26,074 nucleotides of DNA from a virus. The notes under the pieces are model-generated. The model was not told where the DNA came from. It did not search any database and worked only from the letters and a program-made list of their open reading frames with translations. Of this stretch, positions 13,778 to 25,842 are shown one piece after another. Position 1 is the stretch's first letter; each line of letters opens with the position of its first letter. Location of the stretch: positions 1-26,074 of the IMG/VR virus record IMGVR_UViG_3300047319_000501; one strand, written 5' to 3'. The position numbers and the translations under genes were made by a program.

Positions 13778-14389
13778 GTGCTGATGCTCGTCAGCGGAGC
13801 CACCGTCGTCGTGAACGAACACCGAGGACACCCCAACCTCGGACTGCTCGCGGTGCCGAAGGCGGGCAACGCTCCCGAGCATTACCAGGGCTGGCGGTGG
13901 GCGGCAGACAACGGTGCCTTCGACGGCTTCAACGAGTCGCTGTTCCTGCGGATGCTGGACAAACTCAGTGACGTGCCCGGCTGCCTGTTCCTTGCCTGCC
14001 CCGACGTCGTCGCCGACGCTGCCGCGACGCTGTGCCTGTTCGAGGAGTGGGCGCCCCGGCTCGCTGACTGGCCGCTCGCGCTAGTAGCCCAGGACGGGCT
14101 CACGAGCGACATGGTTCCGTGGGATCAGATCTCCTGCCTGTTCGTCGGCGGCAGCACCACCTGGAAACTCGGCGCCGAAGCTGCTGCACTGGTTGATGAG
14201 GCGAACACTCGCGGCAAATGGACGCATATGGGGCGGGTCAATACGTTCCGCCGCATCGACTACGCGCTCGCGCTCAACTGCGACTCCATCGACGGCACGA
14301 ACTGGTCGCGCTACTCACGGCTCAGGATTCCGGGCGGACTACGCCGCCTAGAGAACGAACACCTACTACTACGGGAGGTCCTGCATTGA
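13778..14389 (+). CDS. dpdA: DpdA-like 7-deazaguanine DNA transglycosylase
   Basis: A 203-residue protein resembling the short phage DpdA branch of the tRNA-guanine transglycosylase (TGT) fold. TGT-like landmarks appear in order: 'AADNGAF' (residues 42-48, D44 parallel to the D-S-G-G-F base-binding motif), 'CPDVV' (74-78), 'VAQDG' (103-107), 'FVGGSTTWK' (122-130), 'HMGRVN' (150-155) and 'CDSIDGTNWSR' (168-178), where D172 lies where TGT carries its nucleophile before the PTR motif. The C-terminal zinc site of tRNA enzymes is missing, as expected for a DNA enzyme. It would swap guanine in DNA for a 7-deazaguanine such as preQ0 or preQ1. The next gene encodes a matching precursor transporter, which strengthens the call. 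Start GTG 13778; ATG 13784 is possible. Confidence 0.72.
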   Translation: MLMLVSGATVVVNEHRGHPNLGLLAVPKAGNAPEHYQGWRWAADNGAFDGFNESLFLRMLDKLSDVPGCLFLACPDVVADAAATLCLFEEWAPRLADWPLALVAQDGLTSDMVPWDQISCLFVGGSTTWKLGAEAAALVDEANTRGKWTHMGRVNTFRRIDYALALNCDSIDGTNWSRYSRLRIPGGLRRLENEHLLLREVLH

Positions 14390-14934
14390 AGCGTCTTGCA
14401 CTCTGGCTCGCTGTCGCGTTCGTTGCCCTCGCCATCGTCGCGAACTGGCTCGCCTCGAAGTACCTCATCACCGTGCCACTTACGGACTACGTTGTCCCAG
14501 CCGGCGTGCTCTGTATCGGGGTTGCTCTCGTCATCCGTGACTGGCTGCAACAACTGGTCGGGTTCCGCAAATCCGTGCTGCTCATCCCTATCGCGGGAGG
14601 ACTGTCCTATGTCACAGCCGTCGGGTTCGGCTGGACGTCGCTGCAGAAGATCGCTGTTGCTTCGGTTGTCGCGTTCCTCGTCTCCGAGACGGTCGAGGCT
14701 GTGCTATTCCAGCCGCTCAGAAACCGTTCGCTCAGCCTGGGTGTGGCGCTATCGGCCACGGTAGGGAACCTGATCGACACTTGGATCTTCCTCACCCTCG
14801 CGTTCGGCACGTCGGTTGTGCTGATACCGCCGTACATGTGGGGCACGGTCATCGGCAAGTCGGAGATGATCGCGATCGGCGTCCTACTCACAGTGACACG
14901 TCGTGTGGTGCTGCCCGTTAGGACGGCAGTATGA
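14386..14934 (+). CDS. yhhQ: VUT/YhhQ-family queuosine-precursor transporter
   Basis: A 182-residue integral membrane protein. The TTG at 14386 overlaps the DpdA-like stop (TTGA) and has GGGAGG upstream; no other start gives the full first helix without entering the previous gene. About six hydrophobic helices are visible. Family signals: 'VANWLASKYLITVP' near residues 18-31 (the conserved first-helix Asn), 'VPAGVLCIGVALVIRDWLQQLVG' and 'SATVGNLIDTWIFLTLAF', the Asp/Phe-rich fifth helix of VUT proteins. These importers bring in preQ0/preQ1. With the adjacent transglycosylase this suggests a two-gene salvage route for DNA modification, since no preQ0 synthesis genes lie in the window. Confidence 0.82.
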   Translation: MKRLALWLAVAFVALAIVANWLASKYLITVPLTDYVVPAGVLCIGVALVIRDWLQQLVGFRKSVLLIPIAGGLSYVTAVGFGWTSLQKIAVASVVAFLVSETVEAVLFQPLRNRSLSLGVALSATVGNLIDTWIFLTLAFGTSVVLIPPYMWGTVIGKSEMIAIGVLLTVTRRVVLPVRTAV

Positions 14935-18242: not shown

Positions 18243-18520
18243 TGGCCGAAGCAACCCGGCACCACCGCGAACGACTACTCGACACCTGGCAACAAGCTAT
18301 CGCCGACATTCACCAGTCCGCCGCAGACCGCGACGCCGCCCACAAACGAGCCACCGACGCCGGGGCCGAACTCCACGCCGACCACGGGCTCAAGCTCGCC
18401 GCGACGTTCGACGCCGCCACCGCCGCCGCCCTACAGGTGCTACGGACGGGTGGAGACCCGAACGCCGTCGAGCTCGACTGGGCGATCGTCCCGCCGCCGG
18501 TGCTCAAGGCTGTCGGGTGA
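18242..18520 (+). CDS. Helical protein of unknown function
   Basis: A 92-residue protein from ATG 18242 with AAGGAG upstream. It is Ala/His-rich and helical ('RERLLDTWQQAIADIHQSAADRDAAHKRATDAGAELHADHGLKLAATFDAATAAALQVL') with a short C-terminal segment 'ELDWAIVPPPVL'. It lies directly before the DNA methyltransferase gene (GTGA overlap). No motif ties it to modification. Confidence 0.55.
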   Translation: MAEATRHHRERLLDTWQQAIADIHQSAADRDAAHKRATDAGAELHADHGLKLAATFDAATAAALQVLRTGGDPNAVELDWAIVPPPVLKAVG

Positions 18521-19302
18521 AACCACGCCTCCTCGACCTGTTCTGCGGCGCCGGCGGCGCGGCGATGGGCTACCACCGCGCCGGGTTCGACGTGGTCGGC
18601 GTCGATCTAGTTCACCAGCCAAACTACCCGTTCGAGTTCCACCAGGCCGACGCGCTGGATGTGCTCGAGTCTATCCGCGACGGCGGCCATTGGCTCTACG
18701 AGATCGGCGACCCGGCAGCGATCCACGCCAGTCCACCATGCCAAGCCTACGGCGCAGCCACCAACAGGCTCGTAACCAGGAACGCCCCACGCTTGATCGA
18801 ATCGACGCGCGACGCGATCCATTCATACGGCGGCATTCCCTACGTGGTCGAGAACGTCGTCGGCGCACCACTTGTTAACCCAATCATCCTCTGCGGCTCA
18901 TCGTTCGGGCTCGCCGTAAAACGACACCGGCTGTTCGAGTGCGCCCCGTTCTATTTCCTAGCCCCGCCGTGCCAGCATCCGACCGAGCTTAAGTATCCGA
19001 CGCATGCACGTAAGGACAAGGCGCAACTATCGCCGTTCGTCCATATCTACGGCACCGGCGGTGGCGCCGGGAAAGACATTAACCTATGGCGCTGGGCTAT
19101 GGACGTGCCGTGGATGCAAACCAAGGCCGAGATCGCCGAGGCGATCCCGCCGGCATACACCGAACTGATCGGCCACCAACTGATGCGGCACCTTCAAAGC
19201 TCCGGCCCCCAAGGCCGCCTCCATCAATGGGACGTGACCTTAGAGCACCATCGGACTGATGGTAGGTCGCGAACGGCGGTACAGGGGCCGGGTATCTCGT
19301 GA
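18517..19302 (+). CDS. DNA (cytosine-5)-methyltransferase
   Basis: A 261-residue enzyme from GTG 18517. Conserved motifs in order: I 'LDLFCGAGG' (residues 6-14, SAM binding), IV 'ASPPCQAYG' (71-79, catalytic C75), VI 'VVENVVG' (E112), VIII 'KRHRLFE' (135-141) and X-like 'AEAIPPAYTELIGHQL' (207-222). The target-recognition part between VIII and X is short (about 65 residues), typical of phage enzymes. It methylates cytosine at C5. Methyl marks could themselves block host restriction, or act as the first step of a longer cytosine modification, since a glycosyltransferase of the type used in such pathways is encoded about 1.9 kb downstream. Confidence 0.9.
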   Translation: MKPRLLDLFCGAGGAAMGYHRAGFDVVGVDLVHQPNYPFEFHQADALDVLESIRDGGHWLYEIGDPAAIHASPPCQAYGAATNRLVTRNAPRLIESTRDAIHSYGGIPYVVENVVGAPLVNPIILCGSSFGLAVKRHRLFECAPFYFLAPPCQHPTELKYPTHARKDKAQLSPFVHIYGTGGGAGKDINLWRWAMDVPWMQTKAEIAEAIPPAYTELIGHQLMRHLQSSGPQGRLHQWDVTLEHHRTDGRSRTAVQGPGIS

Positions 19303-19511
19303 CGATCGAACGCATCGACCGGCTCGAGCTCTCCGTCGACGAACGGCTCGCCGAACTGCGCCAGGAAATGCTCGCCTTCCCCGAACCATGGACGCTCGAG
19401 GCCGTCGCCGTGTTCATGCGCGCCGCCTACGGCCGCGGCTACATCGACGCGCTCATCGACAAGGGTGAGTTGTGCCGCGAGCACGGGTACAAGCTGCCGG
19501 GGCAGGCGTAG
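19299..19511 (+). CDS. Small helical protein of unknown function
   Basis: A 70-residue protein from GTG 19299 (GTGA overlap with the methyltransferase). It has two helices ('IDRLELSVDERLAELRQEML' and 'TLEAVAVFMRAAYGRGYIDALIDKGEL') joined by a 'FPEPW' turn, and ends 'CREHGYKLPGQA'. The 'AAYGRGYIDAL' segment is typical of small phage helical proteins. It may be a partner of the methyltransferase or an unrelated early protein. Confidence 0.55.
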   Translation: MTIERIDRLELSVDERLAELRQEMLAFPEPWTLEAVAVFMRAAYGRGYIDALIDKGELCREHGYKLPGQA

Positions 19512-19793
19512 ATGCAGCCCTACCGCGGCCACGGCCGCTACGGGCCGCTCGCCAACCACGCCATCCTGCTCGAGCTCATCACGCCCGAAATCAAAAAGGT
19601 CGGCGTAGGCAAATTCGCCGAACGCTGCCACATCGGCCCACGGCAACTCACCCGCGTCCTCGCCGGCGAGGGACGCACCACCCACCACACCGCCGACCGG
19701 CTGCTGACATTGGGGCTCGGGCGGCCCGACTTGCTTGATCTGGTGTGCCCGCTACTCCACCCGATAGAAACACCCACCACAAAGGAGGAGTAA
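19512..19793 (+). CDS. Helix-turn-helix DNA-binding protein
   Basis: A 93-residue protein from the ATG directly after the previous stop. Residues about 20-68 match a Cro/XRE-like helix-turn-helix: 'LITPEIKKVGVGKFAERCHIGPRQLTRVLAGEGRTTHHTADRLLTLGLG'. 'FAERCHIGPRQLTRVL' forms the turn and recognition helix, and 'TADRLLTLGLG' the closing helix common in phage versions. It probably controls early transcription. The next gene overlaps its stop (TAATG). Confidence 0.66.
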   Translation: MQPYRGHGRYGPLANHAILLELITPEIKKVGVGKFAERCHIGPRQLTRVLAGEGRTTHHTADRLLTLGLGRPDLLDLVCPLLHPIETPTTKEE

Positions 19794-20344
19794 TGAGAGT
19801 AACTGAGATGCGCCCCGACGCCGAGGTCGTCGGGCGGGCCCTAGCGGCCCTCGAACTCGCCGGGGAAGAATCCCTAGCCAAGGAACTCCGCGCCGTTCAA
19901 CGCCGCCTCGCGATCTCGGAGCCCCAGGTCGTCGAAGTAGCGCCGCTATTCCCGAAGGCAGCCACGATCCCGGACGGCTGGGCCTGGGACGACGTCAACG
20001 ACTCCGGCGCGTTCGTCGGCGATCTCTGGGGGATCCGGCTCCGCCGAGGCGAGCCGATCCTGCTTCAGCGCGGGCACGTACTCTACGTCCGCCAAGGTGA
20101 CCTATTCGACGAGCGCGACCGCGGCTACTACAAGCGGATCAGCCGCCAGGCCGGCCAGACCGTCCTTGTCGTCTTTGGCGCCCGCGGGAAACGCGAGGGC
20201 TATATCAGTTTCGACGGCGGCCGCGAACAGCCGCTCGCGATTGTCTCGAGCCCAGGCGAGATCGCCGAATGGATCGTCGGCTGGCTCCGGCGCGCCCAGC
20301 GCGACCCGCTCGCCGACTGGCTTAACGCCGAGGAGGGACTGTGA
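19793..20344 (+). CDS. Protein of unknown function, mixed alpha/beta
   Basis: A 184-residue protein from ATG 19793 with AAAGGAGGAG upstream. It has an N-terminal helical part ('DAEVVGRALAALELAGEESLAKELRAVQRRLA'), then a beta-rich domain ('DLWGIRLRRGEPILLQRGHVLYVRQGD', 'TVLVVFGARGKREGYISFDGG') and a C-terminal helix ('PGEIAEWIVGWLRRAQRDPL'). I checked it for the His-x-Asp iron site of a TET/JBP dioxygenase because of its neighbours, and found none. No family recognised. Confidence 0.55.
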   Translation: MRVTEMRPDAEVVGRALAALELAGEESLAKELRAVQRRLAISEPQVVEVAPLFPKAATIPDGWAWDDVNDSGAFVGDLWGIRLRRGEPILLQRGHVLYVRQGDLFDERDRGYYKRISRQAGQTVLVVFGARGKREGYISFDGGREQPLAIVSSPGEIAEWIVGWLRRAQRDPLADWLNAEEGL

Positions 20345-20607
20345 TCGACCTAAAGGAAGGCGGCTCCGGCTACGTCTACGCGGTCCACGCGCCAGCCGTA
20401 AGGATGGTCAAGATCGGCTGGTCGATGAAACCCCGACGACGACTCCTTCAGGATATACGCCCGCTATGTCCAGTCCCGCTCGTACTCATCGGAATTACTC
20501 CCGGATCGAAGGGAGCAGAGTCGTATTGGCACCAGCTCTGCTCCGACCTAAGAGTACGGAACGAATGGTTCCAAGATACGGCAATCGACCGGCTTAACTT
20601 CATCTAG
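20341..20607 (+). CDS. GIY-YIG-type (T5orf172/MUG113-like) protein
   Basis: An 88-residue protein from GTG 20341 (GTGA overlap). It shows the compact GIY-YIG relative pattern: 'GYVYAV' (residues 10-15) for the first motif, 'VKIGWS' (23-28) for the second, 'RRR' at 32-34, then 'AESYWHQL' (59-66, with E60 and H64) and 'RNEWF' (73-77), the hallmark end of the T5orf172 and MUG113 families. Members may nick DNA or simply bind it. It lies directly before the ParB-like gene within the modification cluster. Confidence 0.72.
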   Translation: MIDLKEGGSGYVYAVHAPAVRMVKIGWSMKPRRRLLQDIRPLCPVPLVLIGITPGSKGAESYWHQLCSDLRVRNEWFQDTAIDRLNFI

Positions 20608-21243
20608 ATGGAACTCGACATCGACTTCGGGACCGCGCCTCTATCCGCCTGGGCCGGTCCCGAATATCTCCGCGAGTTCCTCGTCCCGATATCCGACCTC
20701 CGGGTCGTCCCGAGCGACTACGGCGACCCCGACGTCGCAATCGAAGGGCTCCGCCGACACGGACAGGTACGACCCGTCCTCCTCGACGACGACCGGGTCG
20801 TAGTCTCCCGCGGGCATCTTCTCGAGGCGGCGCTCGCGCTCGGCTGGACACATATCGCCGCGCGCCTCGCCGCGGGCGAAGACGTCCGGGAATCAGTCGA
20901 CCAAATGTCACTGATCGACGTAGCCGGTAACGACGTCGAGATGATCAAGACGCTCGCCGCGAAGAACGGAGGCTCACGGGAGGCGTCCGACGACGAGATC
21001 GACGCTATCGACGAGGCGACGCGCGATGCCGCTACCGAATGGGTCGGGCTACCCGTGTTCGTTCCCACCACTACCCCCTGGAAGCTCGTAATCAGCTGCG
21101 AGACCGAAGCCGACCGCGACGCCGCACTAGACGCCCTCGGTATCGCCACAATTCATAAAGGGACGCGAGGGACGCTCTCCGTCTGGTTCCCCGAGCGCGC
21201 GCGGGAGGACCTCTCGTCGCTCCGCTTCGAGACCTCCACGTGA
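20608..21243 (+). CDS. ParB-like domain protein
   Basis: A 211-residue protein from the ATG directly after the previous stop. The N-terminal half matches the ParB/sulfiredoxin-like fold: 'FLVPISDLRVVPSDYGDPDVAIEGLRRHGQVRPVLLDDDRVVVSRGHLLEAALALGWTHIAARLA' (residues about 24-88), with the 'VPIsdL', 'G.v.PvLl' and 'sRGHlleAalaLGWthi' elements. The C-terminal half is mixed and unassigned. ParB-like proteins are commonly linked to phage DNA-modification genes, where they may guide modification or cut DNA. Here it is followed by the glycosyltransferase gene with a GTGA overlap, so the two are coexpressed. Confidence 0.72.
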   Translation: MELDIDFGTAPLSAWAGPEYLREFLVPISDLRVVPSDYGDPDVAIEGLRRHGQVRPVLLDDDRVVVSRGHLLEAALALGWTHIAARLAAGEDVRESVDQMSLIDVAGNDVEMIKTLAAKNGGSREASDDEIDAIDEATRDAATEWVGLPVFVPTTTPWKLVISCETEADRDAALDALGIATIHKGTRGTLSVWFPERAREDLSSLRFETST

Positions 21244-22190
21244 GCTCGCGCTACCCCATCTACGTGATCTCGAAAGGGCGCGCCGACTGCTGTCTCACCG
21301 CCAAGTTCCTACTCCGCGATCGAGTCCCGTTCGCGCTCGTCGTCGAACCCCAGGAAGTCGCCGCCTACGCTCAACACCTACCCGGCGCTGTCCTGCTCGA
21401 GCTCCCGTTCTCGAACCTCGGGCTCGGATCGACCCCCGCCCGTAACTACTGCTGGGAACACGCGATCGAGAACGGGTACCGCCGCCACTGGATCCTCGAC
21501 GACAACATCGGGCAGATCCGACGACTCTACGGCGGTAAACGCATCCCTTGCTCGAGCGGTCCCGCGTTCGCCGCTACCGAAGATTTCGTCGACCGCTACG
21601 ACAACGTCGCGATCGGTGGCCTTAACTACCAGATGTTCGTAACGCCGACCAGCCCGCCGTACCGCACGAACGTCCACGTCTACTCCACGCTCCTAATCGA
21701 CAACGCTATCCCCCACCGCTGGCGGAGACAGTACAACGAAGACACCGACCTCTGCCTCCAGGTACTCGCGGACGGGCTCGCGACCGTACTCGTCAACCTG
21801 TTCATGATCGACAAAAAAACCACTATGACCATGAAGGGCGGCAACAGCGACGCCCTCTACCAAGGCGACGGACGACTAAAGATGGCCCGGTCACTCGAAC
21901 AAGCCTGGCCCGGGATCGTCCGCGTCGACTACCGCTACGGACGCCCCCAACACGTCGTCGACTGGGGCAAGTTCAAAACCCCGCTTCGGCTCCGATCCGA
22001 CGTCGACCTCGCCGCGCTCCCGAGGGTAGACGAGTACGGGCTAACGCTCGTCGAGAAGACGCCCGTCCGAAGTCGACAGCTACGGGAGCTGCTCGAGCGG
22101 TACCGGGCGAATGGTCTAGACTCCCCGTCGGGAGCAGCATCATCGCCAAGCAGAGGACGGACTCCTCGGAAGATTGGCGGTACAAGATGA
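21240..22190 (+). CDS. TET-associated-type DNA glycosyltransferase (TAGT-like)
   Basis: A 316-residue GT-A-fold protein from GTG 21240. The N-terminus 'YPIYVISKGR' (residues 5-14), 'FALVVEPQEVAAY' (31-43), 'LGLGSTPARNYCWEHAI' (60-76), 'HWILDDNIGQIRRL' (83-96, D87-D88 as the metal-binding DxD-like pair) and 'YNEDTDLCLQVL' (165-176, E167/D168) are the hallmarks of the TET/JBP-associated glycosyltransferase family. These enzymes add a sugar to oxidised bases, such as 5-hydroxymethylcytosine, in phage DNA. A C5-methyltransferase lies upstream, but no TET/JBP dioxygenase is found in this window. The C-terminal 30 residues are Ser/Arg/Gly-rich. Confidence 0.78.
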   Translation: MSSRYPIYVISKGRADCCLTAKFLLRDRVPFALVVEPQEVAAYAQHLPGAVLLELPFSNLGLGSTPARNYCWEHAIENGYRRHWILDDNIGQIRRLYGGKRIPCSSGPAFAATEDFVDRYDNVAIGGLNYQMFVTPTSPPYRTNVHVYSTLLIDNAIPHRWRRQYNEDTDLCLQVLADGLATVLVNLFMIDKKTTMTMKGGNSDALYQGDGRLKMARSLEQAWPGIVRVDYRYGRPQHVVDWGKFKTPLRLRSDVDLAALPRVDEYGLTLVEKTPVRSRQLRELLERYRANGLDSPSGAASSPSRGRTPRKIGGTR

Positions 22191-22381
22191 ACGACAGCAT
22201 CACCCCGAGCGAGAACGCCCGACTCGCCGTCGAGTTCGAACGCTGGCCCGACGCCCGCCGGCTCTGGCGGATCCTGATGCTCTCGCCGACCATCGAGATC
22301 GCCGAGGCCCTACTTAAAGGACAGACCGTCCCGATCGAGTCGCTCGACCCGGAATGGGTCAAACGCTTTGGGTTTAAGTAG
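22187..22381 (+). CDS. Small helical protein of unknown function
   Basis: A 64-residue protein from ATG 22187 (ATGA overlap). It has a charged helix ('SENARLAVEFERWPDARRLWRILMLSPTIEIAEALLKG') and ends 'PEWVKRFGFK'. Its stop is directly followed by the ATG of the ATPase gene, so it could be an accessory to that protein. No motif recognised. Confidence 0.55.
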   Translation: MNDSITPSENARLAVEFERWPDARRLWRILMLSPTIEIAEALLKGQTVPIESLDPEWVKRFGFK

Positions 22382-25515: not shown

Positions 25516-25842
25516 ATGAGCCCAGTGGTACGCCTCTGCAGCAAGTGCGCCAAGCCCGCCACCCACGGCTGCCACTGCAACTACCACCACGTCGCCGAGC
25601 AGCTCAGGCGCAGGGTCAAGACCAAGGCGGCAGGGTACGCATCGCCGCACTGGCAGATGATGCGAGGCAAGGCACTCGACCAGGCAGGGCACAGATGCAG
25701 CGCATGTGGCACGAGCGAACGGCTGACTGTGCATCTCGACCCGCGCCTGCGCGGCAACCACAACCTGGCAACGCTCGACGCATGCACCGTTCTCTGCCGT
25801 GGATGCCACGGTGCAGTAGATGCACCACGTGCACATGCCTAG
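25516..25842 (+). CDS. HNH endonuclease
   Basis: A 108-residue protein from the ATG directly after the previous stop. It has an N-terminal zinc-ribbon-like part ('LCSKCAKPATHGCHCNYHH', residues 7-25), then the HNH core: 'HWQMMRGKALDQAGHRCSACGTSERLTVHLDP' (C61-x2-C64, H73), 'NHNLATLDACTVLCRGCHGAVD' (N83, C94-x2-C97-H98). The order Cys pair, His, Asn, Cys pair is typical of HNH nucleases. In many phages an HNH protein near the packaging genes helps terminase cut DNA; the next genes lie outside the window, so this role cannot be checked here. Confidence 0.85.
   Translation: MSPVVRLCSKCAKPATHGCHCNYHHVAEQLRRRVKTKAAGYASPHWQMMRGKALDQAGHRCSACGTSERLTVHLDPRLRGNHNLATLDACTVLCRGCHGAVDAPRAHA

Follow-up and report, generated by a model that had tools for sequence, protein, structure and literature searches.

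What does a TET-associated glycosyltransferase (TAGT) modify in a phage where no TET dioxygenase is to be seen? The question is raised by IMG/VR record IMGVR_UViG_3300047319_000501, a linear viral fragment of 26,074 bp that was analysed as a whole (hereafter the window). The original prediction, made from the letters alone, read one operon of the window as a cytosine-hypermodification cluster with a C5-cytosine methyltransferase, a GIY-YIG-type protein, a ParB-like protein and a TAGT, and offered three ways around the missing TET: a gene outside the window, another protein of the operon doing the job, or a glycosyltransferase that acts on another base. Here we describe the obligatory partner of this TAGT, a short domain labelled GM that ends the adjoining ParB-like protein, and propose, with a probability that we put at about 0.6, that ParB-GM and TAGT form a two-component phage DNA-glycosylation system that works without TET (coordinates in Table 1).

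The predicted family of the glycosyltransferase holds: a profile search, which could have moved the protein to an unrelated family, keeps it in PF20691 (E = 8e-45, 153.7 bits, cut-off 27.5). An AlphaFold2 model made with 99 relatives has a mean pLDDT (predicted local distance difference test) of 92, and its structural neighbours in the PDB are GT-A glycosyltransferases, the nearest being polysaccharide and protein glycosyltransferases; a sequence search of the PDB with the TAGT profile gave no match. Across the 99 relatives the DxD-type motif D87-D88-N89 is invariant, as are R162, N166, D168, K192, G200-G201, R235 and H238. A tblastn search of 50,697 phage records found a TAGT in 24, the closest of which, at 38–41% identity, are those of Tenacibaculum phage PTm1, Vibrio phage Kuja, Aeromonas T4-like phages and Vibrio phage 1.076.O; the TET-linked TAGT of Nonlabens phage P12024L is 27% identical. 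In a tree of 116 sequences, rooted on the outsiders P12024L, T6, S-CBWM1 and DLP_6 and with modest support at depth, the GM-associated TAGTs, that of the window included, group together, and the four outsiders are joined by long branches outside the group. Judged by sequence, the window TAGT belongs to a large, TET-free branch of PF20691.

The ParB-like protein is present as predicted, in the form of a divergent ParB: it matches phrog_8071 (ParB) at 3.9e-5, Foldseek searches with its model return ParB, Noc, PadC and sulfiredoxin (E = 2.8e-5 to ParB-N), and its CTP-binding box is degenerate (SRGHLLEAA). Its C-terminal domain goes beyond what had been listed. On reading the sequences, the short domain that ends these ParB-like proteins proved to be present in the N-terminal extensions of the TAGTs of large phages. 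An iterated hidden Markov model (HMM) describes it as a domain of about 65 aa with the consensus W-x-G-M-P-E-F ... F-x-x-E-E-D-R-x-x-F ... T-x-K-T-x-S-I-W-x-P, which in the window reads W-V-G-L-P ... S-V-W-F-P-E-R ... D-L-S-S-L-R-F. No Pfam family covers the GM domain, its profile has no sequence match in the PDB, and 4 of 51 members match an unnamed PHROG, phrog_22103. A GM-TAGT coding region also lies unannotated in Vibrio phage henriette 12B8 (HQ316582.1, ~20970-22260), and its reading frame appears to shift where GM gives way to the glycosyltransferase core.

Relatives of the TAGT were gathered from viral contigs, as the best 80 of 596 matches with remoter TAGTs outside the sample, and from bacterial genomes, giving 139 loci (117 clusters at 85%). 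GM is fused to TAGT or encoded nearby in 122 of the 124 testable loci, namely those with at least 750 bp before the TAGT or with a GM-TAGT fusion; the two loci without it (L151 and L152) hold one truncated and one spurious TAGT match. Where GM and TAGT are encoded by separate genes, 96 of 112 pairs overlap or lie at most 20 nt apart. The carriers of GM are ParB proteins (88 open reading frames, ORFs), TAGT fusions (20 ORFs) and standalone proteins (about 20). In an all-against-all comparison, ParB-GM and TAGT are the only genes common to the window and its five nearest viral relatives, and the ParB-like gene adjoins TAGT in all five. The single operon of the original prediction survives for this pair, which is conserved together, but not for the cytosine-modification cluster, whose methyltransferase, GIY-YIG-like gene and small proteins are not conserved with TAGT among relatives.

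Because these loci had been chosen for their TAGT, the test was also run in reverse, from GM to TAGT. Among 11,727 ORFs, every match of the GM HMM lies at a TAGT locus, and reversed proteins give no match. Among 1,175 sampled bacterial genomes (395 + 395 + 385), it matches five, always beside a TAGT and nowhere else in those genomes; three of the five are the genomes on which the samples were centred, leaving two that are fully independent. Searched against all phage records, the GM domain matches nothing but Aeromonas TAGT proteins, at their N-terminus, and a second GM query has no match in the phage records. GM is an obligatory partner of this TAGT branch. In the open-access literature we found no mention of the GM partner domain and no link between ParB and a glycosyltransferase in phage DNA modification; the partner domain is new, and the enzyme family is already known.

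As first noted, no TET is visible: the 26-kb contig has no Tet_JBP match. Since the contig is an incomplete, linear fragment, it cannot directly prove that the phage as a whole lacks TET. The search was extended to 44 viral contigs with related TAGTs, 1.42 Mb in total, and none of these encodes a TET, with the P12024L TET found at 2.8e-29 as positive control. A thymidylate-synthase-type hydroxymethylase (PF00303) is likewise absent from the window and the 44 contigs, mostly fragments. One of the contigs, G003, is a complete genome, as its 2,052-bp end repeat (99.85% identity) shows; it has neither TET nor PF00303, and ten of its proteins belong to recombination, chaperonin, terminase and unknown families, with no base-activating enzyme among them. 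The 44 contigs and the complete genome rule out, as a general rule, the idea of a TET just beyond the window, an idea that stems from the family name; for this branch, the name 'TET-associated' appears to be misleading. The operon protein thought best placed to replace TET (19793-20344) can also be set aside as a hidden dioxygenase: its sequence offers only one histidine and lacks an HxD/E motif, which leaves no room for a canonical 2-oxoglutarate-Fe(II) facial triad, and the protein has no relative in the phage records.

The surroundings of the pair suggest when and with what it may act. A GalE-like nucleoside diphosphate-sugar epimerase is encoded directly 3′ of TAGT in 13 loci and nearby in 20 (16 clusters), and TerL lies within 4 kb downstream of TAGT in 42 of the 88 loci with enough sequence; the sugar supply would therefore be part of the system, and its expression late. 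Two TAGT ORFs are present in 12 loci. Tandem TAGT genes in one operon are seen at L057, L076, L079, L094, L078, L085, L017 and L137, some with a GalE-like epimerase, which suggests two-sugar decorations. In the nearest relative (contig G001), a class I S-adenosylmethionine-dependent methyltransferase-like ORF overlaps the end of the TAGT gene (L001 10897-11610), and its product could methylate the sugar.

In the system that we propose, the ParB part would hold the phage DNA, the GM domain would dock or activate TAGT on it, and TAGT would move a sugar from a uridine diphosphate (UDP)-sugar to a base of that DNA. The UDP-sugar would come from the host or, in some operons, be adjusted by the GalE-like epimerase encoded after TAGT. 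The modification would probably be made late, before packaging, because the genes of many relatives run straight into terminase genes, and it would shield the DNA from the nucleases of the next host.

Phage ParB-like genes are also found beside TET (HTVC112P and MementoMori), beside DpdA with QueC/D/E (Sonali) and, in many cases, beside or fused to methyltransferases. The ParB neighbours of TET in HTVC112P and MementoMori have no GM domain by HMM, so a modular scheme would fit, in which ParB serves the DNA and a C-terminal adaptor serves each enzyme. In Microbacterium phage MementoMori, genes 1-4 (L158 1-3813) encode a ParB-like protein, a TET/JBP-like dioxygenase, a P-loop kinase-like protein and a terminase in a row, an arrangement that resembles a base-hypermodification cassette. 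In Pelagibacter phage HTVC112P, gp17-19 (L154 4375-6597) form an operon of ParB, TET/JBP dioxygenase and FkbM methyltransferase near the terminase, a possible TET plus O-methylation pathway. The RefSeq label 'queuine tRNA-ribosyltransferase' on some dioxygenases of the MementoMori kind looks wrong.

Several points weigh against a two-component DNA-glycosylation system. DNA as the acceptor of GM-associated TAGTs is inferred. No base-activating enzyme is linked to a GM-associated TAGT, and an activator encoded elsewhere could escape notice, most of the contigs being incomplete. To our knowledge, the DNA glycosyltransferases of the TAGT family require a hydroxymethyl or sugar acceptor, and the TAGT of T6 is very distant (E = 1.6e-4 against the GM-clade profile). 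Finally, the model of ParB-GM has a predicted TM-score (pTM) of 0.47 for the whole protein, with its GM part at moderate confidence and no fold assigned.

Of the three ways around the missing TET, a glycosyltransferase acting on something other than TET-made 5-hydroxymethylcytosine (5hmC) is the one that the evidence favours, with a TET-free branch and a methyltransferase outside the conserved unit. A bolder version, which we think less likely than not, is that GM and TAGT glycosylate an ordinary, unactivated base, for example at an exocyclic amine, with no prior oxidation or hydroxymethylation and with ParB-GM as guide or activator, and that this is widespread in phages. If true, sugaring of a plain base would be a new DNA-labelling chemistry and a new phage escape from nucleases.

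The pair could instead glycosylate a phage or host protein, such as a structural or packaging protein encoded alongside, and the frequent adjoining of GM-TAGT genes to terminase and portal genes, the solved folds nearest to the TAGT model and the lack of a linked base-activating enzyme would all agree with this. We nevertheless consider a protein acceptor unlikely. Some TAGT members act on TET-made 5hmC, and GM is most often fused to ParB, whose phage genes accompany other DNA-base enzymes. The T6 TAGT, moreover, acts on a sugar that is already on DNA (PMC13216743).

Slightly less probable again is the route of T-even and RB69-like phages, in which a thymidylate-synthase-type enzyme, working at the nucleotide level, would supply a hydroxymethylated or hydroxylated pyrimidine as the acceptor. 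PF00303 proteins are encoded by PTm1, Kuja and POP12, large phages with GM-fused TAGTs, and the T6-type TAGT acts on glucosyl-hydroxymethylcytosine (glucosyl-hmC; PMC13216743), but the family is missing from the 44 smaller contigs, the complete genome among them, from the window, and from Vibrio phage 1.076.O (48-kb record).

More improbable still is the classical pathway, in which the methyltransferase would make 5-methylcytosine, an unseen TET outside the fragment would convert it to 5hmC, and TAGT would add the sugar. The predicted C5-methyltransferase is real: it matches PF00145 with 22.9 bits (cut-off 22) and phrog_363 at 2.8e-36, and motifs I, IV, VI, VIII and X follow in order (DLFCGAGG, PPCQ, ENV, RHR, AIPPAYT). 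It lies 1.9 kb from TAGT on the same strand, the TET and TAGT genes of P12024L adjoin, and the contig is incomplete, so a TET may lie outside. Yet the related contigs and the complete genome are free of TET, and the TAGT of P12024L, already distant in identity, has no GM and falls outside the clade. The methyltransferase has matches in 3 of the 44 contigs (two above cut-off), none of them in the nearest TAGT relatives. Related methyltransferases turn up in 308 phage records, with Mycobacterium, Streptomyces, Paenibacillus, Arthrobacter and Gordonia as the main genera, and none of these genera is among the 24 records with a TAGT (Vibrio, less well represented, appears in both sets), so the position of the methyltransferase near TAGT in the window is probably a coincidence. 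The gene appears to be an ordinary orphan of actinophages, common in phages that have no TAGT; because it is placed outside the conserved unit, there is no firm case for cytosine as the acceptor.

A 7-deazaguanine inserted by the DpdA-like protein of the window is scarcely credible as the acceptor: that protein and a queuosine-precursor transporter share the contig with TAGT, but no other contig with the TAGT pair has a DpdA-like (phrog_15826) match (the control, ReqiPine5, was found), the carriers ReqiPine5, Aoka and GreaseLightnin are not among the 24 TAGT-bearing records, and the link is rejected for lack of co-occurrence.

Table 1 Features of the window around the ParB-GM and TAGT pair and in the 7-deazaguanine module.
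Feature	Coordinates	Strand	Length	Basis
DpdA-like transglycosylase	13778-14389	+		38-42% identity to DpdA-like proteins; shared invariant motifs
YhhQ/VUT-type queuosine-precursor transporter	14374-14934	+		PF02592 1.8e-10; TIGR00697 6.6e-12; overlaps DpdA-like gene
Orphan C5-cytosine methyltransferase	18517-19302	+	261 aa	PF00145; phrog_363; motifs
Unknown protein	19793-20344	+	183 aa	Motif reading; phage search
GIY-YIG-clan-like (T5orf172/MUG113) small protein	20341-20607	+	88 aa	Pfam, just under cut-off
ParB-like protein	20608-21243	+	211 aa	phrog_8071; Foldseek; reading frame overlaps TAGT start by 4 nt
GM domain	21037-21228	+	residues 144-207 of ParB-like protein	HMM match
TAGT (PF20691) GT-A glycosyltransferase	21240-22190	+	316 aa	Pfam; AlphaFold2 model; invariant columns

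The remaining features of the window stand apart from the pair. The small protein described as GIY-YIG-type is clan-like, but the assignment is marginal, at a T5orf172 score of 19.9 against a cut-off of 20. The DpdA-like protein, compared with those of ReqiPine5, Aoka, GreaseLightnin and Sonali, and the transporter likely make up a 7-deazaguanine DNA-modification module; the same pair of genes occurs in ReqiPine5 and GreaseLightnin in swapped order, and a peptide-pattern search for further DpdA-like loci in viral contigs gave no confirmed match. Given a precursor from the host environment, the module would predict deazaguanine in the DNA of this phage; possession of DpdA alone need not mean modification, as was seen for Orion (PMC6884629). 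The window has a guanine-cytosine content of 63–70%, with head-tail adaptor, major tail and tape-measure genes in its left part and genes for an exonuclease, a recombination-factor-like protein (PF18897), endonuclease VII and an AAA ATPase in its right part; its relatives suggest an actinobacterial phage. At the right end, a translation at 25516-25842 reads as a small cysteine-rich HNH-like protein, with no profile match. Proteins of this sort often precede terminase genes, and the terminase probably sits just past the end of the contig.

An obligatory partner suggests a route for work in vitro, as assays of TAGT without its GM partner could fail, and it sets the GM branch apart from the TET chemistry that the family name wrongly suggests. 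Among known systems, the TET-TAGT system of Nonlabens phage P12024L also has a PF20691 glycosyltransferase, likewise encoded in a phage operon that is early or close to the packaging genes; there the TET and TAGT genes are adjacent, whereas the window has no TET, and the P12024L enzyme lacks GM and sits on a separate branch. The beta-glucosyl-HMC-alpha-glucosyltransferase of T2/T6 (T6 YP_010067197), to which the addition of a second glucose on DNA is ascribed (PMC13216743), shares the family, the GT-A fold and a TET-free pathway, but it uses glucosyl-hmC that derives from a nucleotide-level hydroxymethylase and, unlike the window system, has no GM domain. 'Solitary' TAGTs have been reported in 288 of 753 surveyed phage genomes as possible novel transferases, in a text that does not mention ParB (PMC13216743); the window TAGT is of this sort, in that neither an alpha- nor a beta-glucosyltransferase was seen. 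Phage ParB-methyltransferase fusions and ParB-TET and ParB-DpdA pairs likewise tie ParB to a base-modifying enzyme, but that enzyme is not a glycosyltransferase and the ParB beside TET lacks GM. The GM-fused TAGTs of Aeh1, phiAS5, Kuja, PTm1 and POP12, large phages of Aeromonas, Vibrio, Tenacibaculum and Pectobacterium, are of the same clade as the window TAGT (38–41% identity) and carry the same GM domain; some of these phages, unlike the window, encode PF00303 enzymes, and in them GM is fused to the enzyme itself rather than to ParB.

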